Assembly: GCA_947475545.1 (NCBI GenBank)
Contig: CANJLL010000005.1
Span: 1-64,000 of the forward strand
DNA length: 64,000 nt
Direction of reading: 5' to 3'
Source: Chloroflexota bacterium
GTDB taxonomy: Bacteria > Chloroflexota > Limnocylindria > Limnocylindrales > CSP1-4
The position numbers and the translations under genes are program-made. Positions 10,886-30,394 of this stretch are shown here, piece by piece (within the stretch, counting starts at the first letter, position 1; each line of letters begins with the position of its first letter). The notes beneath the pieces are model-generated. The model was not told the origin of the DNA and searched no databases. It saw only the letters and a list, made by a program, of their open reading frames with translations.

Positions 10886-11479
10886 ATGATTCAATCCTCG
10901 ACCCGGCTCCCGGCCGTTCGTACGGAGGAGTCCGCGTCGCCACTCGCCATCGAGAGCGCGCTCATCCCGTGGGTGGACCTGTGCCCCACGTATGAGACGG
11001 TGGTCTACACCATCGACCGCCGCCAGCGGGGCCTGATCGAGGTGTACGAGGGCTGGCGGATGAGCGATGTTCTCAACGACGATCCGCGCGTGCTCCTGTC
11101 GCGCGTCGCCGTGATGCCCCACGCCGGCGGGCTGCCCGGCCGGGCCCAGGAGATCTCGCTTCCCAGGGGCTCCGTGTACCTCGCGCACCTGGCTGGGCCG
11201 CGCGGCGACCGCGAGATGTTCCGGACCACGGTCAGGACGCCGATCGGCCTCAAGGCCGGCCCGTACCTGGTCCGCGGCTATCACCACACGCTGCCCGGCG
11301 CGCAGTCGATGCGTGTCTGGCCCCGCGAGCGAGCGATGGTGCCGCTGACGGATGCCTGGATCGAGTACCCGATGCGCACGCGCAGAGTCCGCGTGTCCGT
11401 CGATGCCGTGGCCGTCAACCGCCTCCTGGTGGACTGGGTGACCCTGGCGCCGTTCGACGACTTCGACCCACCCCGCTGA
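10886..11479 (+). CDS. Uncharacterised protein, family paralogue A
   Basis: The 197-residue soluble protein has no recognised family. It shares a block with two other products of this locus (13599-14228 and 14289-14885): VVYTIDRRQRG, a MSDVLN segment, LAGPRGD, GPYLVRG, LPLTDAWIEYP-like and VNRLL. The conserved core spans about residues 40-190. There is no signal peptide, membrane span or obvious catalytic cluster. The ATG at 10886 follows a purine-rich GGGGGAA. The gene converges on the ABC permease gene. A sensory or ligand-binding role is possible but unsupported. Confidence 0.7.
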   Translation: MIQSSTRLPAVRTEESASPLAIESALIPWVDLCPTYETVVYTIDRRQRGLIEVYEGWRMSDVLNDDPRVLLSRVAVMPHAGGLPGRAQEISLPRGSVYLAHLAGPRGDREMFRTTVRTPIGLKAGPYLVRGYHHTLPGAQSMRVWPRERAMVPLTDAWIEYPMRTRRVRVSVDAVAVNRLLVDWVTLAPFDDFDPPR

Positions 11480-11527
11480 CCTCCCGGTCAGCCTGCCGGC
11501 GACCGCCCTGCGGCCGGAGCGCCTCCG

Positions 11528-12292
11528 CTACAGCTCCCGGCGCCGAAATGCCCAGGACGCGAGGAGCGCCGCCGCCACGGTGATCCCGGCCGAGGCTGCC
11601 AGCGAGCCCGCCAGCTCGGGCGCCGGCCGACCCAGCGCCAGCGCGCCGCCCAGTGCGGCCAGGCCGCCGGGCAGGTAGGGCGCCACCGTGGGGATCGCCG
11701 ACGCGACCGCCAGCAGGATGAGCCCGCCGACTCCGATGGCCGCCCCACCCGCCGTCGAGCGCGACAGCGCGCTGCCCAGGAACGTGATGGCCGCGTACGC
11801 CACCAGCGAGAGCCAGAGGCAGCCCGCCAGCGCGGCCCAGCCGCCCACGCTGAGTGGCTCGAAGAGTGCCGCCGTGTAGGTCGCGGCCCCGGCGACCGCC
11901 AGCAGGGTGCCCACGCCCAGGGTGACCCCGATTGACGCCAGCTTGGCGGCGAGGAACGCCGCCCGCGTCGCCGGCTTGACCAGCAGGAACGCCGCGGTGC
12001 CGCGCTCAACCTCGCCGGCCACTGCGCTCATCGACAGCAGGACGGCCGCCAGGGCCCCGAACTGCGCGGCGTTCTTGAGGAGCTGCCCTACCGAGTCAAC
12101 CACCGTGGGGATGGGCATGGTCAGCCCGCCCAGCTGGTCGCCACCCACGGCCCGGATGATCTCCGGGGTGAACTTTGCGAGCAGCGGCGACAGGAAGCCG
12201 GAGAGCAGGAGCACGCCCGCCACGACCGGCAGGCGGAGCGTCCGCCAGGACTCCAGGAGCTCCTTGCCCAGGAGGATGCCGAAGCCGGTCAT
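11528..12292 (-). CDS. ABC-2 type transporter permease
   Basis: The 254-residue protein has about six hydrophobic segments and the ABC-2 permease layout: an N-terminal KELLESWRTLRL motif, then VAGEVERGTAAFLLVKPATR, the typical GxxxxELLxKP-like linker after the second helix. It should form the membrane part of an exporter. Its ATG overlaps the ATPase stop (ATGA at 12289-12292), indicating translational coupling. Together with the ATPase and the small PLDc_N protein it resembles the yxlE-yxlF-yxlG group of Bacillus. The substrate is unknown. Confidence 0.88.
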   Translation of the reverse strand: MTGFGILLGKELLESWRTLRLPVVAGVLLLSGFLSPLLAKFTPEIIRAVGGDQLGGLTMPIPTVVDSVGQLLKNAAQFGALAAVLLSMSAVAGEVERGTAAFLLVKPATRAAFLAAKLASIGVTLGVGTLLAVAGAATYTAALFEPLSVGGWAALAGCLWLSLVAYAAITFLGSALSRSTAGGAAIGVGGLILLAVASAIPTVAPYLPGGLAALGGALALGRPAPELAGSLAASAGITVAAALLASWAFRRREL

Positions 12293-13239
12293 CGGTTGGC
12301 CGCCACAATCCGCAGGAAGACCGTCTCCAGGTCTGGGCGCTGGCGCTCGAACGCCGCCAGCACCACGCCGCCCGCCACCACCGCCGGGAGGAGCTCGCGG
12401 CCCGCCGCGTCCACATCCGAGACACTCACCTGCAGCCCGCCCGCGCCCTCGACGACACCCGTGACCCAGGGTGCACCCCGCAGCCTGGCTGCCAGCACCG
12501 CGACGGCCGCCGCCTGGCCCGGCTCCGGGTCAAGGCGATAGACCGGCGACGCGTAGCGCTCCAGGAGCTCCGCGAGCGGCGCCTCGGCGACCAGCCGCCC
12601 GGCGCTCAGGATCCCGACCCGGTCGCACACGCGCTCGATGTCGTTGAGGACGTGCGTCGAGAAGACCACGGTGGTCTCCCCGCGCAGCGTCTGGACCAGC
12701 GCCAGCAGGTCGCGTCGCCCCTCCGGGTCCAGCGAGCTGACCGGCTCGTCAAGGAGCAGCACCGGCGGACGGCCGATCAGCGCCTGGGCGATCCCAAGGC
12801 GCTGTCGCATCCCGCCCGAGTACCCGCCGATCCGCCGCCGAGCCGCCCCCGCCAGGGCGACCCGCTCCAGCAGCTCGTGGACGCGGACCCGGAGCGCCGT
12901 GCCGGCCAGCCCGTGGAGTCGGCCCGCCAGCTCCAGCAACTCCTGGCCCGTCATCCACCCGTAGTAGCGCGGGTCCTGGTCTAGCACGCCGATCCGCCGG
13001 TGGAGGGCGGCTGGATCGGTGCCGACTTCGACGCCCGCCACGTCCGCGCGCCCCGCGCTGGCCTTGGTGAGGCCTGCCAGGAGCCGGAGCGTGGTGGTCT
13101 TGCCCGCCCCGTTGGGCCCCAGCAGCCCGAAGACGGAGCCCGCCGGGATGGCCAGGTCCAGGCTGTCCAGCGCGAGCACATCGCGGTAGCGCTTGGTGAG
13201 GCCCAGGGTCCGGATGGCGACCGCCGCGTCCACGGTCAA
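12289..13239 (-). CDS. ABC transporter ATP-binding protein (YxlF-like)
   Basis: The 316-residue ATPase energises the adjacent permease. It has Walker A GPNGAGKTT near residue 43, the signature YSGGMRQRLG, Walker B VLLLDEP with catalytic Glu, and the switch His of FSTHVLND. A C-terminal extension of about 90 residues (ASPVYRLDPEPG onward) is typical of exporter ATPases of the CcmA/NatA type. The TTG start at 13239 overlaps the upstream PLDc_N stop (TTGA). A GTG two codons further in (13233) is an alternative. Confidence 0.92.
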   Translation of the reverse strand: MTVDAAVAIRTLGLTKRYRDVLALDSLDLAIPAGSVFGLLGPNGAGKTTTLRLLAGLTKASAGRADVAGVEVGTDPAALHRRIGVLDQDPRYYGWMTGQELLELAGRLHGLAGTALRVRVHELLERVALAGAARRRIGGYSGGMRQRLGIAQALIGRPPVLLLDEPVSSLDPEGRRDLLALVQTLRGETTVVFSTHVLNDIERVCDRVGILSAGRLVAEAPLAELLERYASPVYRLDPEPGQAAAVAVLAARLRGAPWVTGVVEGAGGLQVSVSDVDAAGRELLPAVVAGGVVLAAFERQRPDLETVFLRIVAANR

Positions 13240-13436
13240 TCCTCGATCCGGCCGGCCGCAAGGTAGAGGAGCGGGCCCAGCAGCTCGCCGAAGACGATGA
13301 CCAGTGCCCAGACGCCCTTGTTGCCGCCGCGGACCCGGCGCTCGGGCCGGAGCAGGTCGCGCAGGGCCAGCGCCATCAGCAGCAGCTGGATCACGATCAG
13401 CGGGACCAGGAGCGGGAGGATCTCGTTGACGGTCAT
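13236..13436 (-). CDS. Small PLDc_N-domain membrane protein (YxlE-like)
   Basis: This 66-residue protein has two hydrophobic helices: one at the N-terminus (LLVPLIVIQLLLMALALRDL) and one ending in FGELLGPLLYLAAGR. This is the phospholipase D nuclease N-terminal (PLDc_N) domain, which has no phospholipase active site. In Bacillus subtilis the same order (yxlE, yxlF, yxlG) lies downstream of sigY, and YxlE affects SigY activity. No sigma or anti-sigma gene is present here. It is first in the operon, and its stop overlaps the ATPase TTG start. Codon pattern and position support it despite its size. Confidence 0.87.
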   Translation of the reverse strand: MTVNEILPLLVPLIVIQLLLMALALRDLLRPERRVRGGNKGVWALVIVFGELLGPLLYLAAGRIED

Positions 13437-13598
13437 GGCTGCCCTCCTGCGCTGCCGCCCGGGACCGCCCTCACGCAACCGATCAGCGGTGCGGGAACGC
13501 GCCGCGCCGGTGCGGTGTGGGCTGGTCAGGTGGCGTTGGGACCTTTGCGCCGACGCACCACGACTTCTGGCGGAGGGAGACGTTGCCCGGTCGACGTC

Positions 13599-14228
13599 AT
13601 GGTTGCGCTCGTGACCAGCATCTTCGCACAGCACGCCCTCCCCTCCACGCAGCACGCCCGCCCCATCGGGATCCTCGGCGACGTGGATGTCATCGCCTAC
13701 ACGGCTGACTGCCGCTTCATCGGACGCCTGCCCGCCGGAGCGTTCCCGCGCGGCCTCGACCGCGTCGGCGACTTGCGTGAGCTCTCGATCACAAGTGCCT
13801 CGGCCTGGCTGCTCGGTGCCGACCGGCCGACCGGGCGCGATGTGGTGACCATCCCCTGCGCCGATCTGTTCGCCTTCGAGCTGGTCGATCGGGCAGCGGA
13901 GCCCCCGCCGTTCCGCCGCCCACGCTTCCAGCAGGCGCTCACGCTCGGCCTGGGGCCGTACACCGCGCAGGGCACGACCCGTGTCCGGCCGGGCGGCGAC
14001 CCTGTGGCCGCCTTCGAGCGCTCCGCGGGCCTTGTGGTCCTGCGCGACGCCTGGATCGAGTACCCGGCGGCCAACGCCCGCCGGCGCCGCCTGGCCAACC
14101 AGCTCGTGGTCAACCGGGATCGCGCGCAGGCCCTCGGGCTGGCGACCGACCTGGACGCAGATACCCGTGATTACCAGGGCCGCCTCGTGGCGCTCCTGCG
14201 CGACGTGCAGCGACGTGTCCAGCCCTGA
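13599..14228 (+). CDS. Uncharacterised protein, family paralogue B
   Basis: The 209-residue protein is the most divergent of the three linked paralogues. Shared landmarks are VIAYTADCRFIG, LGLGPYTAQG, PGGDPVAAFERS, VVLRDAWIEYP and LVVNRD. The ATG at 13599 is chosen because family homology begins shortly after it. An earlier GTG frame at 13515 exists, with GGAGGGAG at about 13572-13579 rather far from the chosen ATG. The gene is divergent from the PLDc_N/ABC operon and 60 nt upstream of paralogue C. It has no membrane segment, signal peptide or known motif. The function is unknown. Confidence 0.68.
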   Translation: MVALVTSIFAQHALPSTQHARPIGILGDVDVIAYTADCRFIGRLPAGAFPRGLDRVGDLRELSITSASAWLLGADRPTGRDVVTIPCADLFAFELVDRAAEPPPFRRPRFQQALTLGLGPYTAQGTTRVRPGGDPVAAFERSAGLVVLRDAWIEYPAANARRRRLANQLVVNRDRAQALGLATDLDADTRDYQGRLVALLRDVQRRVQP

Positions 14229-14288
14229 CCGCCAACTAGTACGTTTGGCTGTCTGGTCCGGCGTCCTCGGGTGCAGAATAGTGGGCAT

Positions 14289-14885
14289 ATGATCCGGACC
14301 TTGCTCCGACCGTTCGACCGAAATGCTGCCAGCATCCGGCCTCGGGTCGACTTCACCGCCTACGCGGCCGATTGCCGGATCGCAGGACATGTCCTGCTGA
14401 CCGAATCGCGCCTGAGCGACATGCTCAACCGGCACGGCCAGTTTGTCGTCACGGACGCGATCGTGACCAGTTACGTCGGGGTGCCGGACTTGCAGCTGAC
14501 CGACGTGTCGCTCTACCGCGACGACCTGTTCGCTGTGCTGTTGACGGGGCCTCGCGGCGACCAGCAGAAGCGGCGCGCGACGGAGGCCATGGCGCTTGGC
14601 ATCAAGCTGGGCCCGTACCTGGTCCGCGGCCACATCCACGTCACGCCGGGTGCCGACCCGGTGGCCGCCTACAAGCGCGGGCGCGAGATGATCGTCCTCA
14701 CTGACGGCTGGATTCTGCGCGCCGACGGGACCGACGGGACCGACGGGACCGGGGGCCAGAAGGTGCGGGTCTCCGCGCTCCTCGTCAACCGGCTCCTGGC
14801 CGAGTGGGTCACGCCGGTCACGGTGGAAGATGCCGACGCCAGCGACGAGGGCCGGAGCGAGGCCTTGGGCGAGGCCGCCGTCTAG
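14289..14885 (+). CDS. Uncharacterised protein, family paralogue C
   Basis: The 198-residue protein is clearly homologous to paralogue A: FTAYAADCRIAGH, RLSDMLN, LTGPRGD, GIKLGPYLVRG, VTPGADPVAAYKRG, MIVLTDGWI and LLVNRLLAEWVTP. A 9-bp microrepeat (about 14719-14747) encodes a DGTDGTDGTGG loop inserted between the last two conserved blocks and could be variable between strains. ATG 14289 starts MIRTLLRPF, like the MIQ start of paralogue A. A GTG six codons upstream (14271) is an alternative. It lies 60 nt after paralogue B, probably in one transcript. The function is unknown. Confidence 0.7.
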   Translation: MIRTLLRPFDRNAASIRPRVDFTAYAADCRIAGHVLLTESRLSDMLNRHGQFVVTDAIVTSYVGVPDLQLTDVSLYRDDLFAVLLTGPRGDQQKRRATEAMALGIKLGPYLVRGHIHVTPGADPVAAYKRGREMIVLTDGWILRADGTDGTDGTGGQKVRVSALLVNRLLAEWVTPVTVEDADASDEGRSEALGEAAV

Positions 14886-15976: not shown

Positions 15977-17029
15977 CTAGCCGGGCTCGGACGCCAGCCA
16001 GATCGTGAGTGGGCGGGCCGCGGGCGTCATCTCGAGCCGTCCTTCGGTCGTCGCCCACCACGCGGCCAGGCCCTCGTGGCGCGCCGCCTCCCCGATCCCG
16101 CGGGCGCCCTCGAGGAAGAGCGCCTTGCTCCAGATCTCGGCCCAGGCCGGGTCACGACCGGCGACCGTGACCGCGTCCAGTCCTTGCCCGCCCGGCGCGC
16201 CTGTCCGCGGGTCGATCAGGTGGTGGACGGTCTGGCCGCCCGCGGCGGCCCAGCGCCGCAGGCGGGTGGATGACGTGGCGACCGACCAGCCGCCCGGCAG
16301 GGCGACCACGGCCAGTCCGTCACGGCGCCCGCTCGGATCCTCAATATCGATGAGCCACGGTCCATCCGGGCCATGACCGCGCGTGGCGATATCCTGCCCG
16401 GCGTCGATCAGGAAGCCCCCGCCCGCGGCCAGGAGCGGCTCCAGGTCCGTGGCGGCGATGCGGTTGGCGGCCCAGCGGAGGGCCAGCCCCTTTCCGATCC
16501 CGCCCAGGTCCACCGGGACGTCCACTCGGATCACGCCCCGCCCCGTTCGGCGCAGCACTCGTCCATCGGCCCGGCGGACCGCGAGGGTCACTGGCCTGTG
16601 GGCGTCGCCGGCATCCCGGATTGGGGCGCCCGCGTAACCGATCCGCTCAAGCGCGACGAGGACGCGGGGGTCGAACCGCCCGCCCGTCCGGCGATGGGCG
16701 CGATCCGCGGCGGTCAGCGCCCGGACGAGGAGCCGGCCGGCCTCGGCGTCCTGGCCGGTCCTGCGGTTGATGGCCGTGAGGTCGCTGCTGCCTCGGAAGC
16801 GGGACAGGGCCTGCTCCGCGGCCTCGAACGTCGCGAGGACAGTGGCCCACGCAGCCGCGGCGCGGGCGGCGTGATCGACGTCTCCAGCGGTCCCCGTGGC
16901 TTCTACGACGCCCGTCGGCGCGCTGGCAATCAGGCGGAGGGGCGACGCCATGGCCTCGCCCGCAAACCGCCACTCCCCCGGCGGGAGCGGAGCGACCAGA
17001 CCCGGACCGTCGGCACGTGCCTCGGTCAC
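15977..17029 (-). CDS. ApbE-family FAD:protein FMN transferase (divergent)
   Basis: The 350-residue protein fits ApbE enzymes, which attach FMN from FAD to Thr/Ser of extracytoplasmic redox proteins. It shows GGRFDPRVLVALERIGY, VDLGGIGKGLALRWAA, AAGGGFLIDAGQDI, SVATSSTRLRRW and HHLIDPRTGAP. The segment AWAEIWSKALFLEG replaces the usual ADALATALF, changing the Mg-contacting Asp and Thr to Glu and Lys. No signal peptide is seen. The GTG at 17029 begins 4 nt after the preceding stop; a GTG at 17056 overlapping that gene is possible. It ends an operon starting with a heme-type membrane protein, so its target may be encoded there. Confidence 0.83.
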   Translation of the reverse strand: MTEARADGPGLVAPLPPGEWRFAGEAMASPLRLIASAPTGVVEATGTAGDVDHAARAAAAWATVLATFEAAEQALSRFRGSSDLTAINRRTGQDAEAGRLLVRALTAADRAHRRTGGRFDPRVLVALERIGYAGAPIRDAGDAHRPVTLAVRRADGRVLRRTGRGVIRVDVPVDLGGIGKGLALRWAANRIAATDLEPLLAAGGGFLIDAGQDIATRGHGPDGPWLIDIEDPSGRRDGLAVVALPGGWSVATSSTRLRRWAAAGGQTVHHLIDPRTGAPGGQGLDAVTVAGRDPAWAEIWSKALFLEGARGIGEAARHEGLAAWWATTEGRLEMTPAARPLTIWLASEPG

Positions 17030-17033
17030 GGCG

Positions 17034-17756
17034 TCAGACTTGGCAGTTCCAGACACCGTTGTCCTCCAGTTTCGGCTGGACACAGGGCGATGGCATGGGT
17101 GGGATGGGCCTGTTCGACGGCCAGCTGGCCGGAACGCCCGGCGGGTACGTGGCGGCGGGGGCCGGGGTCGGGACGGCGGTTGGCACTGGTGGGATGCCCG
17201 GGAGGATGGCCCCGGCCGCAGCGCCGCCGGGCGTGCCGTTGCCCGCCGCCAGGGGGGCGCGCGTCGGCAGGACGACGCCCGTGTTGGCGAGCGCCTGGTG
17301 GAGAAGCGACAGGCGGGCACGCGCTGCCGCGAGCGCCGTGCGCAGCGACTGGGCCGAGTTGGTATCGCCGCCCAGGCGTGCACCAACCTCGTCCATCCCG
17401 GCCGCGAGGCCGGCGGACGCGGCGATGATCGAGTCGAGTTGCGCCTGCAGGTCGTCGGAACGGGCTTGCTCGGCGGCGAGCTCGGCCTCCAGCTGCGCGA
17501 CACCGGGCCCGGGCTCCGGGAACCTGGCCACGCTGGCGGTCCACGACGAGGCCAGGTCGATCGTCAGCACCGTGCCACCCAGCACGGCTATCACGAAGAG
17601 GAACGTGACGAGACGCCGGGTCAGCGCGGCCCGGTCCGCCCGCACGTCGGGTCGGGCCGGTGCCATGCGGTGGGCGGCCGGGCTTCCACCCGTCCGCGCC
17701 GATGGCTCGGCCGCCGGGCTCCCGCCGCTGAGGCCGGCGCGGACGCCTGCCGTCAT
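17034..17756 (-). CDS. Single-span coiled-coil protein, unknown
   Basis: This 240-residue protein is unrecognised. A disordered Arg/Ala-rich cytoplasmic N-terminus (about 45 residues) leads to one transmembrane helix (LVTFLFVIAVLGGTVLTIDL). A heptad-rich region follows (about residues 85-155: VAQLEAELAAEQARSDDLQA), then a Pro/Ala/Thr-rich tail ending with two Cys (PSPCVQPK and NCQV) that could form a disulfide or bind a cofactor outside the membrane. The ATG overlaps the upstream stop (ATGA at 17753-17756). It is the third of three similarly built products between a heme-type membrane protein and ApbE, suggesting a structural or electron-transfer complex. That role is inference. Confidence 0.7.
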   Translation of the reverse strand: MTAGVRAGLSGGSPAAEPSARTGGSPAAHRMAPARPDVRADRAALTRRLVTFLFVIAVLGGTVLTIDLASSWTASVARFPEPGPGVAQLEAELAAEQARSDDLQAQLDSIIAASAGLAAGMDEVGARLGGDTNSAQSLRTALAAARARLSLLHQALANTGVVLPTRAPLAAGNGTPGGAAAGAILPGIPPVPTAVPTPAPAATYPPGVPASWPSNRPIPPMPSPCVQPKLEDNGVWNCQV

Positions 17757-18277
17757 GGCTTTCCGGACGCGCCGGTGGTCGCGATCGGGACCGGCTTTGG
17801 GGCGGGTGTGACGAGCGGCGCCGCCGCGACCGAGGTGCTCTGGCGGACGGGCGCGCTGGTGGCCGCCGGCCGCGCGGTCGGGATGCTGTCAGGGAGCACG
17901 CCTGCTTCCGCCTGCAGGCTGTCGATCCGTCCGGTCAGGTCGGCGATCCGCGCCTCGTACGCCGCGATCGACGCGACCAGCGAGGTGTAGGCCTCGCTGG
18001 CCTCGCCGTAGCGGGCCCGGGCCACGTCGAGGCTGCCGGACAGGCGGTCGTGGCCGTCGGCGAGCTGACCCAGCGCGCTCACGATCGGCGCCTTCTCGGC
18101 CGCGACCGCCGATTCCGAGGCCGCCTGGAGGGCCGTCGTCCCCGCCAGGAAGACGGAGTAGGTCCCGGCGGAGAGCCCGAGGAGGACCGCGACGTGGGCC
18201 GGGATCCGCGGGAACGACCGGCGTCTCGGGGGGGACGCGCGGCGCCCGGTGTCCTCGTTGGCCTCAGTCATCGTCAT
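17753..18277 (-). CDS. Single-span coiled-coil protein, unknown
   Basis: This 174-residue protein has a basic N-terminus, one hydrophobic segment (HVAVLLGLSAGTYSVFLAG), a predicted coiled coil of about 70 residues (KAPIVSALGQLADGHDRLSG onward to LQAEAG) and a Thr/Pro/Ala-rich tail. It shares this plan, but no detailed identity, with the genes on both sides. It starts at ATG 18277 within the last codons of the upstream gene (14-nt overlap); an internal ATG two codons later is also possible. No Cys, His cluster or SGAT-like flavinylation motif is present. The function is unknown. Confidence 0.68.
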   Translation of the reverse strand: MTMTEANEDTGRRASPPRRRSFPRIPAHVAVLLGLSAGTYSVFLAGTTALQAASESAVAAEKAPIVSALGQLADGHDRLSGSLDVARARYGEASEAYTSLVASIAAYEARIADLTGRIDSLQAEAGVLPDSIPTARPAATSAPVRQSTSVAAAPLVTPAPKPVPIATTGASGKP

Positions 18278-18731
18278 CGTCGTGGTGCCGGGGCGTGGGT
18301 GTGGCGACCGGCCGGCTGGCAGTGCTGGTCGGGGCCTTGGTGGCCGTGCGCACGGGCGCGGGGGTCGGCGTCGGATCGGGCTCGGGGGTCGGTTGTGCCG
18401 CGAGCGCGTCCTTGGCCTGGGTGAGCTCCAGGCGGAGGGACTCGGTGGCGGCCTGGTCGGACACGGCCATGGCGTTGGCCATCTGGATCATCTGGGCCAG
18501 GCTGTCGGAGCCGCCCGCGAGCCGGTCGATCTGGGTCCGGATCGACGCGGCCTTGGTCTCGGCGGCCTCGATGCGCGCCTGGAGCTCGAAGATCCCGGCG
18601 GGCGGCTCCACCTTGGTGGCCGAGGCGAGCGCCCATTCCGCGGCGGTCCCGATGGCGAGGCCACCGGCCACCAGGCTCAGGGTGGCGCCCGTCGTGATCA
18701 CGGCCCGCCGGACGATGAGGTTGAGATGCAT
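18264..18731 (-). CDS. Single-span coiled-coil protein with His/Asp tail, unknown
   Basis: The 155-residue protein has an N-terminal hydrophobic segment (AVITTGATLSLVAGGLAIGT) that could be an anchor or signal. A heptad-rich stretch (about residues 45-110: IFELQARIEAAETKAASIRT) and a Thr/Pro linker lead to the unusual end RHHDDDDD, a potential metal-binding tail. It is the first of the three small proteins after the heme-type membrane protein, with 9 nt between genes. The coiled coils suggest that the three may assemble with one another. No known family is recognised. Confidence 0.68.
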   Translation of the reverse strand: MHLNLIVRRAVITTGATLSLVAGGLAIGTAAEWALASATKVEPPAGIFELQARIEAAETKAASIRTQIDRLAGGSDSLAQMIQMANAMAVSDQAATESLRLELTQAKDALAAQPTPEPDPTPTPAPVRTATKAPTSTASRPVATPTPRHHDDDDD

Positions 18732-18740
18732 GCGGCCCTC

Positions 18741-19454
18741 CTACAGGGTGGTGGAGAAGGTTGGGCGGGCCTGCCGGGCGACCCAATATCGATAGGAGAC
18801 GGCGGCCACGACGAACAGCCCGGAGGCGCCGTACAGGCCGACCATGGCCACCGAGTCGGTGCCCGCGAGGACGCCGTGGAGCCATGCGATGGGGAAGATG
18901 ACGTGGCTGATTCGATGAATCCGGAGCCACAGGCCGGCGGGGAGGAGCTTGGTGTAGCGGGCCGTCAGGCCGGTGAAGAGCAGCGCCCACAGGGCGAGCG
19001 TGCCCAGCGCCATGGCCGGAGTCCGGTACGCGGAGGCACCCGGGATCAGCGCCCCGAGCAGTCCCACATCGGCCCATTCGTCCAGGACGGTGGTGACGAT
19101 GTGCGCACCGAGGAAGGCCAGCACGAAGACCCACGCGTTCTCGTGCCACGGGAAGAGCAGCTTCGAGAGCTTCCACGTCGACTTGTTGGTGGGGTGGCTC
19201 AGGATCAGGCCAAGAGAGATCTGAATCGAGAGCATGACCAGGGTGGTGAACCCCGCAGCCCTCGTGGCGAGCCAGATCTGGACCGCCGCCTGCCGCGCGG
19301 AGACGGGTGGCGCCACCTCCTGGGTGGCCGCGAGGATCACGATCCCGGCGACGGCGAGCACCGCAAGGAACGTCCCGGCGCGCAGGCGCATCGGCGGTCC
19401 GGTCTTGGCGGCGGGCCTGGCCGGTGGGGCCAGGCGGCGTGCGTCAGCGGTCAT
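18741..19454 (-). CDS. Ferric-reductase-like transmembrane heme protein
   Basis: The 237-residue integral membrane protein has about six helices and resembles the ferric-reductase-like transmembrane domain (YedZ/MsrQ/FRE superfamily), which carries b-type heme between paired histidines. Candidate ligands are the His residues of PWHENAWVFVLAFLGAHIV and LRIHRISHVIFPIAWLHG. It has no FAD or NAD domain, so electrons must pass to or from partners. The ATG at 19454 begins MTADARRLAPP; the longer frame upstream has no family similarity. It heads the operon of three coiled-coil proteins and ApbE, and a perfect 13-bp inverted repeat lies 39 nt upstream. Confidence 0.8.
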   Translation of the reverse strand: MTADARRLAPPARPAAKTGPPMRLRAGTFLAVLAVAGIVILAATQEVAPPVSARQAAVQIWLATRAAGFTTLVMLSIQISLGLILSHPTNKSTWKLSKLLFPWHENAWVFVLAFLGAHIVTTVLDEWADVGLLGALIPGASAYRTPAMALGTLALWALLFTGLTARYTKLLPAGLWLRIHRISHVIFPIAWLHGVLAGTDSVAMVGLYGASGLFVVAAVSYRYWVARQARPTFSTTL

Positions 19455-19659: not shown

Positions 19660-20508
19660 TCAGGGCGCGGACGTGCCTCGTCGCCGGCGGCTCGCCAGGC
19701 CCGTCCGTGGCCCCAGCACCAGCGCCAGCCCGAAGACCGCGGTCTCCACCAGCACGATGGTGGCGCCGCTGGCCACGTTGAGCCAGTAGCTGGCATACAG
19801 CCCGAGGATCGCGCCGCCCACGCCGATGACGACCGCGAGCAGCATGAGGCGGTTGAAGTGGATGGACAGCAGCTGGGCCGTGGCCGCCGGGGTGATCAGC
19901 ATGGCCACCACGAGGATGATGCCCACGGCCTGCAGGCTGACCACGATGGTCAGCGCCACGAGCACCAGGAAGAGGTACTCGAGCAGCCCCACCGGGAGGC
20001 CGGAGGCCGCCGCCGCCAGCGGGTCGAACGTGGCGTACAGCAGCTCCTTCCAGAGCACCAGCACGACGACCAGGATCAACGCTCCCAGGGCCACCAGGCT
20101 CACCAGGTCACCCGTCGAGATGGCCAGGATGTTGCCGAACAGGAAGCTGAACAGGTCGGCGACGAAGCCCTTGATCGCGCTGTACCAGAACAGGCCCAGG
20201 GCGAACATGCCGACGAAGATCACGCCGATCGCCGTGTCGGTCCGGATCCTCGTCCGGCGGATCACCAGGCCAATGCCCAGCGCCGTCCCGACGGCCGCCA
20301 CCCCGGCGCCCAGCAGGAACGGCACCTTGAAGACGAACGCGGCCACCAGCCCCGGGAAGGCGGCGTGGCTGACGGCCTCGCCGATGAACGCGAGGCCCTT
20401 GAGCACGACATAGGTGCCCACGACGGCGCAGACGGTCCCCACGAGGATCGCGGCGAGCATGGCCCTGACGAAGAAGGCGTGCGTGAGCGGGTCCACCACG
20501 AGCTCCAC
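19660..20508 (-). CDS. znuB: Zinc ABC transporter permease ZnuB
   Basis: The 282-residue protein has eight to nine hydrophobic helices and matches the ABC-3 (metal) permease family. Typical segments are GLAFIGEAVSHAAFPG, AVGIILVVAMLITPAATAQLL and the Gly-rich GVGGAILGLYASYWLNVASG. It moves Zn(II) delivered by ZnuA using ATP hydrolysis by ZnuC. The start lies 3 nt after the znuC stop, and the gene is last in the zur-znuA-znuC-znuB operon. Manganese or iron transport cannot be excluded from sequence alone, but the linked Fur-family gene and the binding-protein ligands favour zinc. Confidence 0.92.
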   Translation of the reverse strand: MELVVDPLTHAFFVRAMLAAILVGTVCAVVGTYVVLKGLAFIGEAVSHAAFPGLVAAFVFKVPFLLGAGVAAVGTALGIGLVIRRTRIRTDTAIGVIFVGMFALGLFWYSAIKGFVADLFSFLFGNILAISTGDLVSLVALGALILVVVLVLWKELLYATFDPLAAAASGLPVGLLEYLFLVLVALTIVVSLQAVGIILVVAMLITPAATAQLLSIHFNRLMLLAVVIGVGGAILGLYASYWLNVASGATIVLVETAVFGLALVLGPRTGLASRRRRGTSAP

Positions 20509-20511
20509 GGA

Positions 20512-21498
20512 TCAGCCCTCCCCGTCGGTGGTGGAGCCGGCGTCGCGCGATTCATCCCTGGTGGCCGGCCGCGGCCCCCGGTGGCGGTGCGGCTGGGCGG
20601 GGCGCGACTCCTCGTGAAAGTGCGCCTCGCGGCCGTGCGCCTCGTCGTGGTGGTGGGCGTCATCGAGGATCGCCCGCTGGCCGCCGAGAACCAGCACATG
20701 TCCGCCGTAGGTCCGCGCCAGCACGTCCGGGTCCAGGATCAGCGAGGCGGGCCCAAAGGCCACCACGGTCCGGTTGATGGCCGCGACCTGCTGGAACCGC
20801 TCCGCGGCCGTGGGCAGGTCGTGGGTGGTGGCGATCACGGTCTTGCCGCGCTTCGCCTCACCCTCCAGGATGTCCATCAGCTCCTGCTGCGTGGTGATGT
20901 CCACCCCGGTCACCGGCTCGTCGAGGAGGAACAGGTCCGGCTCTGACGCGAGCGCGCGGGCGAGGAAGACGCGCCGCCGCTGCCCGCCGGACAGGGCCCC
21001 GATCTGGGTGCCCGCATGCTGGGCCATCGAGACCTTCTCGAGCGCGGCCGTGACCGCGCGGTGATCGTCGCGACCGGGCCGGCGCAGGACGCCGAGAGCG
21101 GGATAGCGCCCCATCATCACCACGTCCTCGACCGTGACGGGGAACTGCCAGTCCACGGTCTCCGCCTGGGGGACGTAGGCCACGCGCCGCGCCGCGACGC
21201 CGGGCCGGTGACCCAGGACCTCGACGCGACCTGACCACGGCTTGAGCAGCCCGGCGATCAGCTTGAGAAGCGTGCTCTTGCCGGCGCCGTTGGGGCCGAC
21301 GACCGCGAGGAGGGAGCCCGCCTCCACGGCCAGGTTGACCCCATTCAGCGCGAGGCGATCGCCGTAGCCGGCGGTGACGTCCGACAGCCAGACGTCGGCA
21401 TGGGCACGGGCGTGGCCCGCATCGATGCCGGCCGCGCTGCCGATGGGCGGCAGGTGGCTGGCGTGCTCGTGGGAGCGAGCATCGTGCGGGTGCGTCAC
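20512..21498 (-). CDS. znuC: Zinc ABC transporter ATPase ZnuC with His-rich tails
   Basis: The 328-residue ATPase shows Walker A GPNGAGKST, signature LSGGQRRRVFLARALA, Walker B LFLLDEP and switch His in ATTHD. It is longer than usual because both ends are His-rich: seven His in the first 35 residues (VTHPHDARSHEHASH onward) and eight near the C-terminus (DDAHHHDEAHG onward). These tails could bind zinc for sensing or storage in the cytoplasm. The GTG at 21498 lies 13 nt after the znuA stop with a G-rich ribosome-binding site, and the upstream frame extension lacks support. Confidence 0.92.
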   Translation of the reverse strand: MTHPHDARSHEHASHLPPIGSAAGIDAGHARAHADVWLSDVTAGYGDRLALNGVNLAVEAGSLLAVVGPNGAGKSTLLKLIAGLLKPWSGRVEVLGHRPGVAARRVAYVPQAETVDWQFPVTVEDVVMMGRYPALGVLRRPGRDDHRAVTAALEKVSMAQHAGTQIGALSGGQRRRVFLARALASEPDLFLLDEPVTGVDITTQQELMDILEGEAKRGKTVIATTHDLPTAAERFQQVAAINRTVVAFGPASLILDPDVLARTYGGHVLVLGGQRAILDDAHHHDEAHGREAHFHEESRPAQPHRHRGPRPATRDESRDAGSTTDGEG

Positions 21499-21511
21499 CG
21501 GCCCACCCCCA

Positions 21512-22450
21512 TCACCTGAGCGCCGCCACGATCCGGTCCACGTCCCATCGAATGAGCCCCTCGTAGCTGTCGGCCGGGGCATCCCCCAGCGTGTCGTCGT
21601 ACAGGTTGGATTCCACGACCATGCGTGCCTCGTCGGCGATCGCGTGGGCCAGCTTGTCGCTGAACTGCGCCTCGGAGAAGATCGCCCGGGCCCCGGACGA
21701 CTTGATGGCCGCCAGCAGGTCGGCGATCTCCCCGGCGGACGGGTCCTGGCCCGGGGTCGAGATCACGGACCCGATGACCTCCAGGCCGTACGCCTCGGCG
21801 AAGTACGGGAAGGCATCGTGCAGCACGATGACCTTGCGGTTGGCCTGGGGCACGGCCGCGAGCTGTGTCCGGGTCCACGCGTCCAGCTCGGCGAGCCGTG
21901 CGTCGAACGCCGCCGCCTGGGTCGCGATCTGCGAGGCCTTGGCCGGGAGGATCGCCTCGAGCGCCGTGGCGATCGCCGCGACGTAGCTGCGGGCGTGGGC
22001 GACGTTGAGCCAGGCGTGTGGGTTGGCCAGGCCCTCCTCGACGAGGATGGAGCCCGGCGGCAGCGCGTCGCCCAGCCTGAGCACCGGACCCTTCGACCCG
22101 ACGGTTCCCACGAGATCCGTCAGCGGGTCGTCCAGGCCCAGGCCGTTGACAACGACCAGCGAGGCCTCGGAGATCGCGACCAGCGTGGCGGGCCGGGGGT
22201 CGAAGGTGTGGATCTCGCCGCCCTTGGGCACGAGGCTGGTGACCCTGATGAGCGACCCGCCGACACGTGCGACGAGGTCGGCGAGGACGGTGGTGGTGGC
22301 CACGACACGGATGGCGCCCGGCTCGGGAGATGGCAGGTCCGGGGCCAGCGCCGACCCATCTGCGGCGACGCAGCCGACGAGCGCGAACGAGAGGGCGGCC
22401 ACGCCCGCGGCCAGGCGCACGACGATCCCGCGCGGCGACCTCGGGGTCAT
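21512..22450 (-). CDS. znuA: Zinc-binding lipoprotein ZnuA (cluster A-I SBP)
   Basis: The 312-residue solute-binding lipoprotein captures Zn(II) for ZnuBC. The N-terminal signal ends in a lipobox with Cys27 (FALVGC). Likely metal ligands are His81 (GGEIHTFDP), His145 (LANPHAWLN) and His211 (VLHDAFPYFAEAYG), plus an acidic residue near the C-terminus (NLYDDTLGD). The three-His arrangement favours zinc over manganese. The long His/Asp-rich loop of some ZnuA proteins is missing; instead, the ATPase carries His-rich tails. The ATG overlaps the zur stop (ATGA at 22447-22450). Confidence 0.93.
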   Translation of the reverse strand: MTPRSPRGIVVRLAAGVAALSFALVGCVAADGSALAPDLPSPEPGAIRVVATTTVLADLVARVGGSLIRVTSLVPKGGEIHTFDPRPATLVAISEASLVVVNGLGLDDPLTDLVGTVGSKGPVLRLGDALPPGSILVEEGLANPHAWLNVAHARSYVAAIATALEAILPAKASQIATQAAAFDARLAELDAWTRTQLAAVPQANRKVIVLHDAFPYFAEAYGLEVIGSVISTPGQDPSAGEIADLLAAIKSSGARAIFSEAQFSDKLAHAIADEARMVVESNLYDDTLGDAPADSYEGLIRWDVDRIVAALR

Positions 22451-22884
22451 TCGGCGGTCCGCTCGCCGGCCTGGCAGGCGGGGCAGCGCCCGAAGAGCTC
22501 AAGGCGGTGGCTGTCGATCCGGAAGCCGGTGCGGCGAGCGACCTCCGTGACGACGACCGCCAGCTCGGCGTCGTCGAAGTCCACGACCGTGCCGCAGCGC
22601 GAGCAGACGGCATGGTGGTGATGGCGCGGGGCGCACTCCACGTAGGCATGCGCTCCGCCGGGGAGGTCGATCCGCTCAAGCGCGCCGGCGTCGCGGAGCA
22701 GCTCCAGCGTCCGGAAGATGGTGGCCCGGCCCAGGGGCACCTCGCGGAGCTGGGCGTCCGCGGCGATGTCCGCCGCGGTGAAGTGACCGGTCCTGGCGGC
22801 GATCAGCTCGGCGACCAGGCGACGCGGGCGTGTCTGCCGGAGGCCGGCGCGGTCCACGGTGGGCACGGATGGCGTCTCTGTCAC
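22447..22884 (-). CDS. zur: Fur-family zinc uptake regulator (Zur)
   Basis: The 145-residue Fur-family repressor has an N-terminal winged helix (about residues 12-80, with PLGRATIFRTLELLRDAGAL as recognition region) and a C-terminal dimerisation/metal domain. Structural zinc would be held by Cys94/Cys97 (CSRC) and Cys134/Cys137 (CPAC); the regulatory site includes the PRHHHHAVC histidines. Position at the head of znuACB identifies it as Zur. GTG 22884 is preferred because the -10 box TATCAT ends 7 nt before it. The frame can be extended to a TTG at 22908, but that would place coding sequence over the operator. Confidence 0.9.
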   Translation of the reverse strand: MTETPSVPTVDRAGLRQTRPRRLVAELIAARTGHFTAADIAADAQLREVPLGRATIFRTLELLRDAGALERIDLPGGAHAYVECAPRHHHHAVCSRCGTVVDFDDAELAVVVTEVARRTGFRIDSHRLELFGRCPACQAGERTAE

Positions 22885-22937: not shown

Positions 22938-23831
22938 TCAGCGTTCGAGCAGCGACTCCACGATCGGCGTCCAGGTCACCCGGAGGTCCGTGCCGATCGC
23001 GAGGGCGCCGTAGCCCAGGCGATCGTGCACCCACTCGAGCCCGGCCAGCCCCATCGGGAAGGCCGCGGTCGCGTAGGCATCCGCCCAGGTCAGGCTTGGC
23101 CCCACGACCGTGAGGCTGAGCAGCTCGCCCGGCGCGTTGCCACCCCGCGGGTCTCGCAGGTGGCCCGGCCGCTGGTATTGGCCCGAGGTGGCGACCGCGC
23201 GGTCGCGGACCAGGAGGACGGCGGCGATCGAGCCGGGCTCCAGCGGGTGCTGGATGCCGACCCGCCAGGGCGTCGGCGCGCCAATCGCCCGGTCGCGCGG
23301 GCCCGCGCCGGGCTCCGGTCCGCCCGCGGCCAGCACGTCGCCCCCGGCGTTGATGGCGTAGTCACGCAGGCCGGCCGCCTCGAGCACCGCCGTGCCCTCC
23401 TCGATGGCCCAGCCCTTCACGATCCCCGAGGGATCGAGGCTGCCATCCGGCCGGTGGCCGCGGGCGTCGAACGTGCCGCCGCTGATCCGGCGCAGGTCCT
23501 CGCAGGCCCCCAGGATCCAGCGCAGGTCCGGGCTTGCGTCCTCCTCGGCCAGCTCACCCCTCGAGATGCGCGACACCTCGCTGTCCGGGCGGTATGGGCT
23601 GAAGCGCCGGTCGATGTCCGTCAGCACGGCGAAGAAGGCGTCGAGGATGGGCGCGAGGGCCAGGTCCGGGATCCGGTCCCGGACATCGACGCCGACGGTG
23701 GTCCCCATCACCGTCTCCACGCGCGGCAGGCGGTCGCGGACACCGGGTGACAGGTTCGCGCCGGTCACCAGGGCTGTGCCGGGCGACGCGGCCAGACCCC
23801 GTCGCGCTGGTTGGTCCGCCGCCTCGCCCAT
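22938..23831 (-). CDS. apbE: ApbE-family FAD:protein FMN transferase
   Basis: The 297-residue protein has the canonical ApbE motifs: VMGTTVGVDV, RRFSPYRPDSEVSRI, GGTFDARG, DPSGIVKGWAIEE, INAGGDVLAAGG, AVATSGQYQRPG and the Mg-binding TWADAYATAAFPMG with Asp and Thr retained. It should transfer FMN onto the neighbouring FMN-binding-domain protein, encoded 16 nt upstream, whose SGAT motif is the acceptor. No clear signal peptide is present, so the reaction site is uncertain. It is the last gene of the module 25839-22938 (reductase, flavoprotein, ApbE). Confidence 0.92.
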   Translation of the reverse strand: MGEAADQPARRGLAASPGTALVTGANLSPGVRDRLPRVETVMGTTVGVDVRDRIPDLALAPILDAFFAVLTDIDRRFSPYRPDSEVSRISRGELAEEDASPDLRWILGACEDLRRISGGTFDARGHRPDGSLDPSGIVKGWAIEEGTAVLEAAGLRDYAINAGGDVLAAGGPEPGAGPRDRAIGAPTPWRVGIQHPLEPGSIAAVLLVRDRAVATSGQYQRPGHLRDPRGGNAPGELLSLTVVGPSLTWADAYATAAFPMGLAGLEWVHDRLGYGALAIGTDLRVTWTPIVESLLER

Positions 23832-23847: not shown

Positions 23848-24411
23848 TCAGCCGTGGGCCGCGTCGAGCGCGGCCTGGAGCGAGGCCTGGTAGGCGCGGC
23901 TGGTGTACGTGGCCCCGGACACGATCTGGATGCTGGCGCTCTTGGCGGTGAGGGCCTCGTTGCGGAGCACGGGGCTGCTCCATGTCGAGATGGAGCCCGA
24001 CCGACCGCCCGTCGGGAGCCGCACCGCGGCGATGTCCGCGATCGCGCCGTTGACCACGGTGACCTGGACCTGGACGGGGCCGTAGCGGGTCTGGACCAGG
24101 GTGCCGGTGAACACCTGTCCGCCGGCCACGACCGGCGCCTGGGTGGGCTGCGTGGTGGGGGGCTGCGTCGCCCGCGGGGTGGTCCCGCCGCCCGCCGCCG
24201 TCGGCGTGGGTCCGGCGGTCGCCGTCGCGCGCGCGGTCCGGGGTGGGGCGGTTGGCGCGGCCTGTTCGGTCGGATCGGGTGTGCCGCCGGACCGTGCCGT
24301 CACCGCGAGGGCGATCTCGTCGGGGCTCTTGAACCCGACCAGCAGGGCCGCGGCGAGGACCAGGCTGGAGATCACCAGCCAGAACCGGGCGTGGAGGGAC
24401 GGCTCAGGCAT
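23848..24411 (-). CDS. FMN-binding domain protein, predicted flavinylated
   Basis: The 187-residue protein is anchored by an N-terminal helix (FWLVISSLVLAAALLVGF), has a Thr/Pro linker of about 60 residues and a C-terminal FMN-binding domain (about residues 98-186, as in NqrC/RnfG). The flavin acceptor is expected to be Thr168 in VSGATYTS. The Asp often found three residues before the Ser is Gln162 here. The domain lies outside the membrane and probably carries electrons from the neighbouring heme/FAD reductase. The ApbE gene follows 16 nt later. Confidence 0.9.
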   Translation of the reverse strand: MPEPSLHARFWLVISSLVLAAALLVGFKSPDEIALAVTARSGGTPDPTEQAAPTAPPRTARATATAGPTPTAAGGGTTPRATQPPTTQPTQAPVVAGGQVFTGTLVQTRYGPVQVQVTVVNGAIADIAAVRLPTGGRSGSISTWSSPVLRNEALTAKSASIQIVSGATYTSRAYQASLQAALDAAHG

Positions 24412-24438: not shown

Positions 24439-25839
24439 TCAGTATTCGAACCGTTCCACGTGGACCTGGCTCCGCGGCACGCGCAGCTGATGGAGCGTCT
24501 GCTCCACCCGGTCCATCATCGGGCCCGGGCCGCAGATGTACACGTCCTGCTCGCAGATATCGGGCACTATCCGCCACAGGTTGTCCGGCGCGAGCGGGTC
24601 CTCCGGCATCGCCGCCGACCCCCGCCGTCCAACGAGGTACTCGACCCGGGCGCCCCGGGTGGCGGCCAGCGCATCGATCTCCTGGCGCAGCACGAGGTGC
24701 TTGGCCTGGCGCGCGCGATAGAGGAGGGTCAGCTCGCCCGGATGGGCGGAGAGTGCCTCCAGGAGCGCGCGCAGAGGCGCGATGCCGATCCCGCCGGCGA
24801 TCAGCGTCACCTTGCGGCGCGTCCGCTTGGCGCCGGTGAGGATCCCGTACGGGCCCTCGGCCCAGACGCGGGTCCCGGGCCGGAGCCGCTGCATGGACCT
24901 GGTGTCATCGCCGAGCGCCTTGACCGTGATCCGGAGCCAGCGACCGTTGGGCGCGGCCGACAGCGAGAACGGGTGGCCGCTCCACCAGCGCGGACCGGCC
25001 AGGAAGCGCCACACGAACCACTGGCCCGCCCGCGTCGGGAGCTGGTCGAGGCGATGGCCGGTGATGTAGATGGACGCGACCCCGTTCCCCTCGTTGACGA
25101 CCTCGGCGACCCGCAGCCGGTGGCGAAGGTTGAGCCAGATGGGGTGGCCCAGGCGGAACACCACGATCAGGGCGGCCGCCGCGACGTACAGCGCGATCCA
25201 GTAGGCGCTGGCCAACTGGTCGTGCATGAAGTCCGCGCCCACGCTCAGCTGGTGCAGGAAGCCCAGGGCGATGGCCGCGTAGGCCAGCAGGTGGAGCAGG
25301 AACCACGCCTCGTACGACAGGCGCGAGCGCGCCGCCCGGACGGAGCTGATCCCCACCGCCAGGAAGATGGCGAACCCCAGCACGGAGAGGGCCACCCAGT
25401 CGAAGGTGGTCAGGATGGTCCATGCCTCGCCCAGGAAGGAGGCGTGGTCCCCGATCGAGTAGCCGAGGATCGTGAAGATCCCGTGCGCCACAATCAACCA
25501 GACCGCAGCGAAGCCCGTCCAGCGATGGGCCCACGCCAGGCGGTCGATGCCGAAGACCTGGTCCAGCCACGGGCTCCGGGACATGAGCACCAGCTGCACG
25601 AGCGACAGGTAGGCGGCAAACAGCCCGGTCAGCTGGCCGATCGCGGTGAAGGCGGCCCCCGGCGCCTCCAGCCCGTCCAGCCCGCCGTGGCGCACCCACA
25701 TCGCGGCGACGATGGCGGCGTTGGCCAGGAGCAGCCACAGGATGTCGAAGGAGATGACCGGCCAGATCCGAGGCAGCGGCACCCGCACTGGAGCAACCGG
25801 CATGGCGGCGACTGGGGCGGGGCGGCCGGGTGACTGCAT
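24439..25839 (-). CDS. Ferric-reductase/FNR-type membrane oxidoreductase
   Basis: The 466-residue protein fuses six membrane helices of the ferric-reductase type (about residues 25-235) to a cytoplasmic ferredoxin-NADP reductase-like module. Heme ligands are probably in AHRWTGFAAVWLIVAHG and FLLHLLAYAAIALGFLHQ. FAD is bound by HPFSLSAAP, NAD(P)H by LIAGGIGIAPLRALLEAL and CGPGPMMDRVE. There is no 2Fe-2S domain. It should carry electrons from NAD(P)H across the membrane via heme to the flavinylated partner encoded 27 nt downstream. The final acceptor is unknown. Confidence 0.9.
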   Translation of the reverse strand: MQSPGRPAPVAAMPVAPVRVPLPRIWPVISFDILWLLLANAAIVAAMWVRHGGLDGLEAPGAAFTAIGQLTGLFAAYLSLVQLVLMSRSPWLDQVFGIDRLAWAHRWTGFAAVWLIVAHGIFTILGYSIGDHASFLGEAWTILTTFDWVALSVLGFAIFLAVGISSVRAARSRLSYEAWFLLHLLAYAAIALGFLHQLSVGADFMHDQLASAYWIALYVAAAALIVVFRLGHPIWLNLRHRLRVAEVVNEGNGVASIYITGHRLDQLPTRAGQWFVWRFLAGPRWWSGHPFSLSAAPNGRWLRITVKALGDDTRSMQRLRPGTRVWAEGPYGILTGAKRTRRKVTLIAGGIGIAPLRALLEALSAHPGELTLLYRARQAKHLVLRQEIDALAATRGARVEYLVGRRGSAAMPEDPLAPDNLWRIVPDICEQDVYICGPGPMMDRVEQTLHQLRVPRSQVHVERFEY

Positions 25840-28999: not shown

Positions 29000-30394
29000 C
29001 TACTTCAGGGGATCACCGTCGCCGGCCTTCAGCAGGCCCAGCGCGCCGCGCCCAACGAAGTTGAAGGCGTGGGTGACGATCGGGTAGAGGCCGTCCTCGG
29101 GCATGTTGAGCTCGACGTAGGCGCCCTGGGCGGGGGACAGGTCAACCGCCTGGGAGCCGTAGTTGCCCGCGTTGCCCTTGAGGAGCTGGACGCCTTCCTT
29201 CATGACCGTGTTGAAGATCGTCCCGACGATGTGGAACGAGCTGTCGGTGTTTGGACCGGCGTTCAGGATGAAGATCCGGACGGAGCCGCCGGTCTTGGTC
29301 TGGAGCGGGTTGTCCTTGTACTGGTTGGCGACGCCGTTGAAGACGACGTAGTCGGGCGCCGGCGCGGCCGCCGAGGCGGCGCTCAGGGAGACCGGCTGGC
29401 CCTGGGGGCCCAGGTACCACTCGCTCTGCACGAGCGCGTACTCGTTGTCGACCGGCTTGAGCCCTTCCTTGGGCTCCACGATGACCATGCCGTACATGCC
29501 GTTGGCGATGTGATGGAGCGCCGGGGCCGTGCCGCAGTGGTACATCCACACGCCGGCGTAGTCGGCCTTCCACTCGTACAGCTTCTCCTTGCCCGGGTCG
29601 ATCGACGTCATCTCGTCGTTCCAGGCGACCTGGCTGGCGTGGAAGTCCACGGAATGCGCGAGCTGGTTGGTGGCCGGGTTCTTGAGGTGGATGCGGATGG
29701 TGTCACCAACCTTGACCCGGATCACCGGGCCGGGGACGGTCCCGCCGAAGGTCCAGACCGCCACCGCGAAGCCCGGGGCGACCGTCATCTGCTTCTCCTG
29801 GATGACCAGGTCGATGTCGTGCGTGGTCCCCGGCAGGAGCGCCGGGGCCTTCGCGTCGAAGGGCGTATAGGCCGGGGCCTTGGGATCCGGTTGCGTGGCG
29901 GTGACCGGGGCCGGTCCGCCGTGGTCATCGGCGCCGGCGCTGGTGGCCGTGCTGCCCTTGACCGTGATGGCGCCCTTCATCCCGGCGTCCGCGTGCCCGG
30001 GGATGGAGCACAGGAAGGTCAGCCCGCCGGCCGGGATGTTGACCTTGACACTGATCGCCTTGCCCGCCGCCGCGACGCCCTTGGTGCCGTCGGCAAACGT
30101 GATGTCGTGCTGCAGGGCGCCGGTGTTGTTGAGCGTCACCGTGTAGATGCCTGCCTTGGCGACCTCGAGGTCCTTCGGCGTGAAGCCAAGGTCGACCGAT
30201 TCGATCTTGAGCTCGCCCAGGGCGGGGCCCGTAACGGCGGCGGGTGCGGCGGGTGCGGCACTGGCGGCGGGCGCGGCCCCCGCCGCACCCGCTGGGGCGA
30301 AGGTCCACGCGGGGGGCTTCTGCGCGACGCAGGCGGAGGTGACGAGCGCGACGGCCGCGCTACATGCGACGAGTCGGGCGAGACGGCGCGACAT
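29000..30394 (-). CDS. nirK: Copper nitrite reductase with N-terminal cupredoxin domain
   Basis: The 464-residue exported protein reduces nitrite to NO. An N-terminal signal (possible lipid attachment at Cys22) and Ala/Pro linker precede a plastocyanin-like domain with type 1 ligands His96, Cys129, His134 and Met139. Two cupredoxin domains of NirK type follow: AHSVDFHAS (His247 type 1, catalytic Asp250, His252 type 2), MYHCGTAPALHHIANGM (His286 type 2, Cys287, His294 or 295 and Met300 type 1), SFHIV (His388) and THAFNF (His442 type 2). All copper ligands are retained. The fused cupredoxin probably feeds electrons. Start ATG 30394 has GGGAAGGGAG upstream. An Rrf2 regulator gene lies upstream. 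Confidence 0.92.
   Translation of the reverse strand: MSRRLARLVACSAAVALVTSACVAQKPPAWTFAPAGAAGAAPAASAAPAAPAAVTGPALGELKIESVDLGFTPKDLEVAKAGIYTVTLNNTGALQHDITFADGTKGVAAAGKAISVKVNIPAGGLTFLCSIPGHADAGMKGAITVKGSTATSAGADDHGGPAPVTATQPDPKAPAYTPFDAKAPALLPGTTHDIDLVIQEKQMTVAPGFAVAVWTFGGTVPGPVIRVKVGDTIRIHLKNPATNQLAHSVDFHASQVAWNDEMTSIDPGKEKLYEWKADYAGVWMYHCGTAPALHHIANGMYGMVIVEPKEGLKPVDNEYALVQSEWYLGPQGQPVSLSAASAAAPAPDYVVFNGVANQYKDNPLQTKTGGSVRIFILNAGPNTDSSFHIVGTIFNTVMKEGVQLLKGNAGNYGSQAVDLSPAQGAYVELNMPEDGLYPIVTHAFNFVGRGALGLLKAGDGDPLK

Follow-up and report, generated by a model that had tools for sequence, protein, structure and literature searches.

Flavinylation systems of the MsrQ-like type (Meheust et al. 2021, PMC8238504) combine a haem membrane protein of the ferric-reductase-domain (FRD) type with the flavin mononucleotide (FMN) transferase ApbE and an extracytoplasmic partner, typically a substrate with an FMN_bind domain. 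The DUF2271 and DUF3570 substrates have no FMN_bind domain and were found through gene context and motif (PMC8238504). In FMN_red proteins whose C-terminal extension is unstructured, a Ser/Thr acceptor adjoining the protein's own conserved flavin pocket was shown experimentally (PMC11334425). In engineered proteins, a C-terminal flavin-tag of seven residues, D-x-x-[S/T]-G-A-[S/T], suffices for ApbE, and Ser is accepted (PMC12052999). Genomes with orphan apbE genes remain (Meheust et al., PMC8238504), and therefore some ApbE substrates must be missing. Here we describe a cluster of five genes, HEME-COIL1-COIL2-COIL3-ApbE1, at positions 15977-19454 of a 64,000-nucleotide stretch of DNA (the window) from a 3.2-Mb Chloroflexota metagenome-assembled genome (MAG), labelled G000. 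The cluster is probably a compact electron-transfer unit in which COIL2, a small membrane-anchored protein, represents a new kind of ApbE substrate, predicted from its sequence to carry FMN on a C-terminal tether.

The cluster shares with the MsrQ-like systems the haem protein, the ApbE and an extracytoplasmic candidate partner but differs in two respects: its haem protein lacks a NAD domain, and its candidate substrate has a coiled coil and a C-terminal tag in place of an FMN-binding domain. In both COIL2 and the FMN_red proteins, the acceptor site is placed on a disordered tail at the C-terminus; in COIL2, however, the site is predicted, and no flavin-binding fold is detectable. As with the engineered flavin-tag, a short C-terminal sequence is predicted to be modified by ApbE, although the tag found here is natural and has no leading Asp. 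The DUF2271 and DUF3570 substrates likewise do without an FMN_bind domain but are folded domains. Beyond the cited papers, our literature search returned none on ApbE substrates that are disordered or have a C-terminal serine. The most likely novelty of the locus, and a strong prediction, is a flavinylation tag that sits at the C-terminus of coiled-coil anchors and does not rely on a folded domain. Such a tag would define a candidate substrate class that is invisible to FMN_bind, DUF2271 and DUF3570 profile searches and raises the idea that FMN may work on a bare tether.

All five open reading frames (ORFs) lie on the minus strand, and adjacent ones overlap or almost touch, as in an operon. 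HEME (18741-19454) is an MsrQ-like, haem-type membrane protein with five transmembrane (TM) segments. It is followed by COIL1 (18264-18731), an N-in single-TM anchor with a coiled coil and a tail ending in RHHDDDDD; by COIL2 (17753-18277), of similar layout; by COIL3 (17034-17756), a third single-TM coiled-coil protein with the C-terminus PCVQPKLEDNGVWNCQV; and by ApbE1 (15977-17029, GTG start, with an alternative start at 17056), a homolog of FAD:protein FMN transferase. A sequence-only reading of this DNA had picked out the same five genes, together with the His- and Asp-rich end that belongs to COIL1 and the two Cys located near the C-terminus of COIL3. That reading had seen no SGAT-type motif in the small proteins, which was an oversight. 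COIL2 ends in TTGASGKP (residues 167-174; 17756-17779, minus strand), in which TGAS (residues 168-171) is an exact match to the published [S/T]GA[S/T] motif (PMC11334425, PMC8238504) and Ser171 (codon 17765-17767) is the predicted FMN acceptor. The alternative then offered, that these proteins carry a new acceptor motif, holds as far as a site on a small protein is concerned, but the site is a variant of a known motif, TxGASG at the C-terminal end. The FMN_bind profile (PF04205) matched none of COIL1, COIL2 and COIL3.

In the AlphaFold2 model of COIL2 (m87ffb747b523), residues 27-127 form a single helix, and residues 128-174 are a disordered tail. Orthologs vary in length and in the tail yet end similarly (TTGASGKP, TSGASGG, TTRASGG, CTTASGKPC, TSASGKP, TTGGSGRP). 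When the sequences were aligned on the tag Ser, information was low across most of the tail and rose over the last ~10 residues. Among non-redundant orthologs, the Ser, the Ala/Gly at position −1 and the Thr/Ser at −3 are each present in 33 of 33 and the Gly at +1 in 31 of 32, for a consensus of roughly [QNHS]-x-T-[TS]-x-[AG]-S-G; the third base of the Ser codon varies. The pattern [ST]x[AG]S occurs within the last 10 residues of all 33 orthologs (shuffled tails: mean 2.4, maximum 8) and exact [ST]GA[ST] in 17 (shuffled tails: mean 0.31, maximum 3); these shuffling figures cannot be read as probabilities of independent events, because alignment on the Ser itself sets that column and the sequences share ancestry. 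The charge distribution predicts an N-in orientation for 27 of the 33 COIL2 and for 32 of the 33 COIL1 proteins, which places the COIL2 tail, by prediction, outside the cytoplasmic membrane. A role of the tag as a sortase or PEP-CTERM sorting signal was considered and seems unlikely, there being no TM segment after the tag and no LPxTG.

The P0001 search matched 100 of 201 relatives (E ≤ 0.001), and ~35 loci were taken as orthologs by identity (42 to 99%) and gene order; genes in these regions were called with a codon-bias script. COIL1 and COIL2 come after HEME in all 33 relative loci with sufficient sequence; in two others (L062 and L066), the sequence stops before COIL2 could be seen. ApbE1 comes next in all but one of the loci with sequence left. 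The core order HEME-COIL1-COIL2-ApbE1 is present in family f1 and in family f4 of the same class. COIL3 was found, among the relative loci compared, only in the window and in its congener G001. The conserved unit is four genes, to which a genus-specific COIL3 is added, and not the five-gene order whose conservation the sequence-only reading had proposed to check. The operon is real and conserved, and its small proteins are the likely ApbE substrates, so that the sequence-only reading, which had named them as one option, was correct in its general outline. A scan for promoters and terminators was uninformative at the G+C content of the window.

The tag also recurs on other proteins encoded near ApbE. 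For this comparison, loci were picked by HEME or ApbE similarity and not by the tag. The pattern [ST]G[AG][ST] was found in the last 10 residues of 26 of 88 small single-TM proteins encoded within two genes of an ApbE, compared to 2 of 61 controls (Fisher P = 1.9e-5, inflated by relatedness). Away from ApbE, tag-like ends were seen in 5 of 1092 called proteins, 4 of which were COIL2 or type-B small proteins (see below). The most telling recurrence is type F, where a soluble, Cys-containing protein of 93 to 100 amino acids, unrelated to the coiled coils, ends in SASGH beside ApbE in three genomes (G137, G159 and G143). Its distant homolog in G089 ends in AHATSGASGLGTYGGE. On the ApbE tree, the type-F enzymes are sister to ApbE1, and the joint clade has a support of 100 in the Shimodaira-Hasegawa-like approximate likelihood ratio test (SH-aLRT). 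Outside the class of the window, genome G511 has ITGASG and HATTGASGVP on two small proteins beside ApbE and HEME in a different gene order; this locus turned up after the tag had been described.

Throughout the phylum, operons with ApbE and an FRD-like HEME encode either a single small anchored protein or two; often, one such protein ends in acidic residues and one has a C-terminal Ser motif. The motif depends on the operon type, being [ST]GGS in type B, TxQSG in type C, THVS in type D and TTRxS in type E, and types B to E form groups on the ApbE tree. We tentatively propose, at somewhat less than even odds, a natural flavin tail-tag that extends across Chloroflexota: each clade of ApbE would have its own tail motif (TxGASG, SGGS, TxQSG, THVS or TTRxS) and modify the C-terminal Ser within it, on small anchored proteins and on one soluble protein, none of them with an FMN-binding fold, and modification would take place in the cytosol before export of the tail. 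Our findings also point to possible new ApbE specificities and to possible flavinylation ahead of export, which is relevant to the making of exported flavoproteins. The small anchored proteins of type-B operons (L073, L075-L081, L087 and L126-L132) are Ser/Thr/Gly-rich and are encoded with ApbE and a second kind of haem protein, HEME-b; several of these operons include two-component regulators or NuoF-like and ferredoxin genes, NuoF-like genes being present in some published MsrQ-like clusters too (PMC8238504). In type-D operons (L091, L104, L114, L122, L124 and L125), the proteins beside ApbE are tiny and anchored, end in HVS (mostly THVS) and are usually preceded by two larger proteins.

HEME has two bis-His pairs, H104-x13-H118 and H180-x12-H193; all four His are invariant in orthologs and align with the His pairs of HEME-b. 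The window HEME itself has no Pfam match, and PF01794 was matched by 4 of 15 orthologs (best E-value, 5.8e-7). Comparison with HEME-b homologs by hhalign gave 99.8%, and 10 of 11 of those homologs match PF01794. From this transitive profile evidence and the four correctly spaced invariant His, HEME is assigned to the FRD (MsrQ-like) superfamily. A PDB profile search using HEME orthologs gave no match, and an AlphaFold2 model built from three sequences had a mean predicted local distance difference test (pLDDT) score of 45, so the assignment stands on the profiles. Some HEME-b proteins have a fused C-terminal region of ~150 to 200 amino acids of unknown kind (L072:7129-8289 and L126-L130); such a protein is also encoded in the window's own genome.

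ApbE1 matches PF02424 with 132.5 bits (cutoff, 25.6; E-value, 2.7e-38), and ApbE structures in PDB are matched as well. Most ApbE core residues are conserved, and S253/S254, H269/H270, E298 and K302 are invariant in orthologs. Of the catalytic set of Vibrio cholerae ApbE (S241, H257 and D285), Ser and His are kept, and every ortholog has Glu298 in place of the Asp.

We infer the following course of events. ApbE1 would take FMN from FAD and esterify Ser171 in the C-terminal TTGASG tag of COIL2; in some relatives, the tag of COIL1 would be modified as well. COIL1 and COIL2, as N-in single-pass anchors, would pair through their coiled coils and hold their tails outside the cytoplasmic membrane. 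HEME, a predicted two-haem cytochrome with no NAD(P)H domain, would hand on electrons, taken from the quinone pool or from another donor, to the tethered FMN, and the FMN would serve as a swinging arm that needs no FMN-binding domain. The cluster encodes no electron donor, and the assumption of quinol follows the analogy with MsrQ. The final acceptor would most likely be a metal ion, because the C-terminus of COIL1 is acidic and often contains His, which suggests cation binding, and because genes for a metal ABC transporter and a Fur-family regulator often precede the cluster. In 18 of the 33 relative loci, a Znu-type gene is among the six genes upstream, and in 16 it lies directly upstream. 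As flavinylation has been linked with iron reduction and uptake (PMC8238504), we weakly favor a role in reductive metal acquisition.

Several observations weigh against this account. The metal role depends on a context found in those 18 loci. About half of the COIL2 tags depart from the strict motif (TTAS, TSAS, GGS and TRAS), and instead of a conserved leading Asp, position −6 is mostly Q, N, H, S or V; replacing the motif Asp by Ala had only a minor effect in Klebsiella (PMC12052999). The ends of types C and D lie outside the published motif, and in one genome (G011, locus L056), the cluster has no ApbE1, yet COIL2 retains TTGAS. In addition, an N-terminal hydrophobic segment (export or lipidation signal) was found in 0 of 87 ApbE genes, so the enzyme looks cytosolic, whereas the COIL2 tail is predicted to be outside. 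The divergent ends, the G011 locus and this mismatch would also fit a C-terminal Ser motif that is a protease or sorting signal, a site of another modification or a protein contact, with ApbE1 acting elsewhere. We consider this unlikely, since the ApbE motif is present without deviation in about half of the COIL2 tails and its Ser in all of them, the tag recurs on unrelated carriers linked to ApbE1 or its sister clade, and in 19 relatives no other known ApbE substrate was detected. Cytosolic ApbEs are known (PMC12052999), and attachment of FMN to COIL2 would then precede export. A second ApbE encoded in the window, ApbE2, likewise has no hydrophobic N-terminus, though it is paired with a canonical substrate; the mismatch between a seemingly cytosolic enzyme and an exported substrate is thus general here and not particular to COIL2. 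Signal-less ApbEs and the lack of a TM segment in the type-F tag carriers are also compatible with a C-in, cytosolic tail, from which FMN would bring electrons from a cytosolic donor to HEME and not outwards. That orientation is very unlikely given the predicted N-in/C-out topology of most COIL1 and COIL2 proteins and the Cys on either side of some tags (NACTTASGKPC), an arrangement suited to an extracytosolic disulphide; DsbA/VKOR genes are often near the cluster, being within six genes upstream in 13 of 33 loci.

The enzyme itself also gives grounds for doubt. Glu298 and Lys302 stand, in all ApbE1 orthologs, where known ApbEs have the metal-site Asp and Thr, and the AGGD of most relatives is AGQD in the window ApbE1. 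Among ApbE homologs, some (Ftp) act as hydrolases (PMC4767422), and a single point mutation may switch the activity (PMC12052999). ApbE1 might thus be an FAD pyrophosphatase or a structural subunit that has lost transferase activity, with the coiled coils merely scaffolding HEME. We regard this as highly improbable: Glu and Lys also occur in many of the other operon types of the phylum, the catalytic His and Ser are invariant, and a scaffold would not call for the strong conservation seen in the COIL2 tag. The sequence-only reading had offered, as its other option, that ApbE1 serves an FMN-binding protein 5 kb away. Such a protein, with an SGAT motif, is indeed encoded at 23848-24411 (minus strand; PF04205, 3.8e-8), and in the window, as in G001, its gene and that of ApbE1 belong to one co-directional block. 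However, its gene is directly followed by apbE2 (22938-23831, minus strand; PF02424, canonical ADAYAT motif), which had gone unmentioned, and relatives keep HEME-COIL1-COIL2-ApbE1 without any FMN_bind gene. FMN_bind had no match in 19 relatives carrying this HEME type, and DUF2271 and DUF3570 had none in those 19 or in the window's genome; several such relatives (e.g., G088, G094, G073, G071 and G082) have a single ApbE match, though with MAGs 65 to 95% complete, absence in any one genome is no proof. The proposed service of ApbE1 to the FMN-binding protein is therefore extremely improbable. That protein is likely the substrate of ApbE2, with which it forms a separate flavinylation pair, and it is unnecessary to explain ApbE1.

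The other two coiled-coil proteins differ from COIL2 at their ends. COIL1 orthologs have an acidic C-terminus in most cases, and in seven of them, a TxGASG tag lies ahead of the acidic end. In three orthologs (L051:5863-6615, L052:3866-4627 and L071:2038-2817), a longer, possibly folded C-terminal region, YRVYCL...IVVP, replaces the acidic tail; the one ortholog searched had no Pfam match for this region. A small protein adjoining ApbE and HEME in another locus (L117:5640-6125) ends with a run of ~20 Asp, an extreme acidic tail. COIL3 has no tag and may be a COIL1-type duplicate, as some COIL1 orthologs resemble COIL3 best. With two or three coiled coils encoded together, a heteromeric assembly, which the sequence-only reading had suggested, is plausible.

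Upstream of HEME, also on the minus strand, genes for ZnuB, ZnuC and ZnuA and for a Fur-family regulator (19660-22866; PF01475, PF01297) are preceded by those for ApbE2, the FMN-binding protein and a ferric-reductase/FNR fusion of the same FMN_bind cluster (24439-25839; PF01794 and PF00175). DNA identity to G001 (L037) is mosaic: 99.8 to 100% in COIL1 and COIL2 (17753-18731) and in the FMN-binding gene, and 85 to 89% in the Znu genes and ApbE1. This probably reflects recent recombination between congeners, and with neighbors at only 85 to 89%, the near identity of COIL1 and COIL2 was rejected as a sign of selection. Farther along the window, an exported protein with cupredoxin and multicopper-oxidase domains (29000-30394) is encoded beside an Rrf2 regulator (30621-31109), MMPL genes and a CrtC-like lipocalin; in relatives, genes from this block are often found near the cluster. 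Three similar-looking proteins of ~200 amino acids and unknown function (10886-11479, 13599-14228 and 14289-14885) are encoded around an ABC transporter pair at 10886-14885, and their homologs, too, are located near the cluster in relatives.

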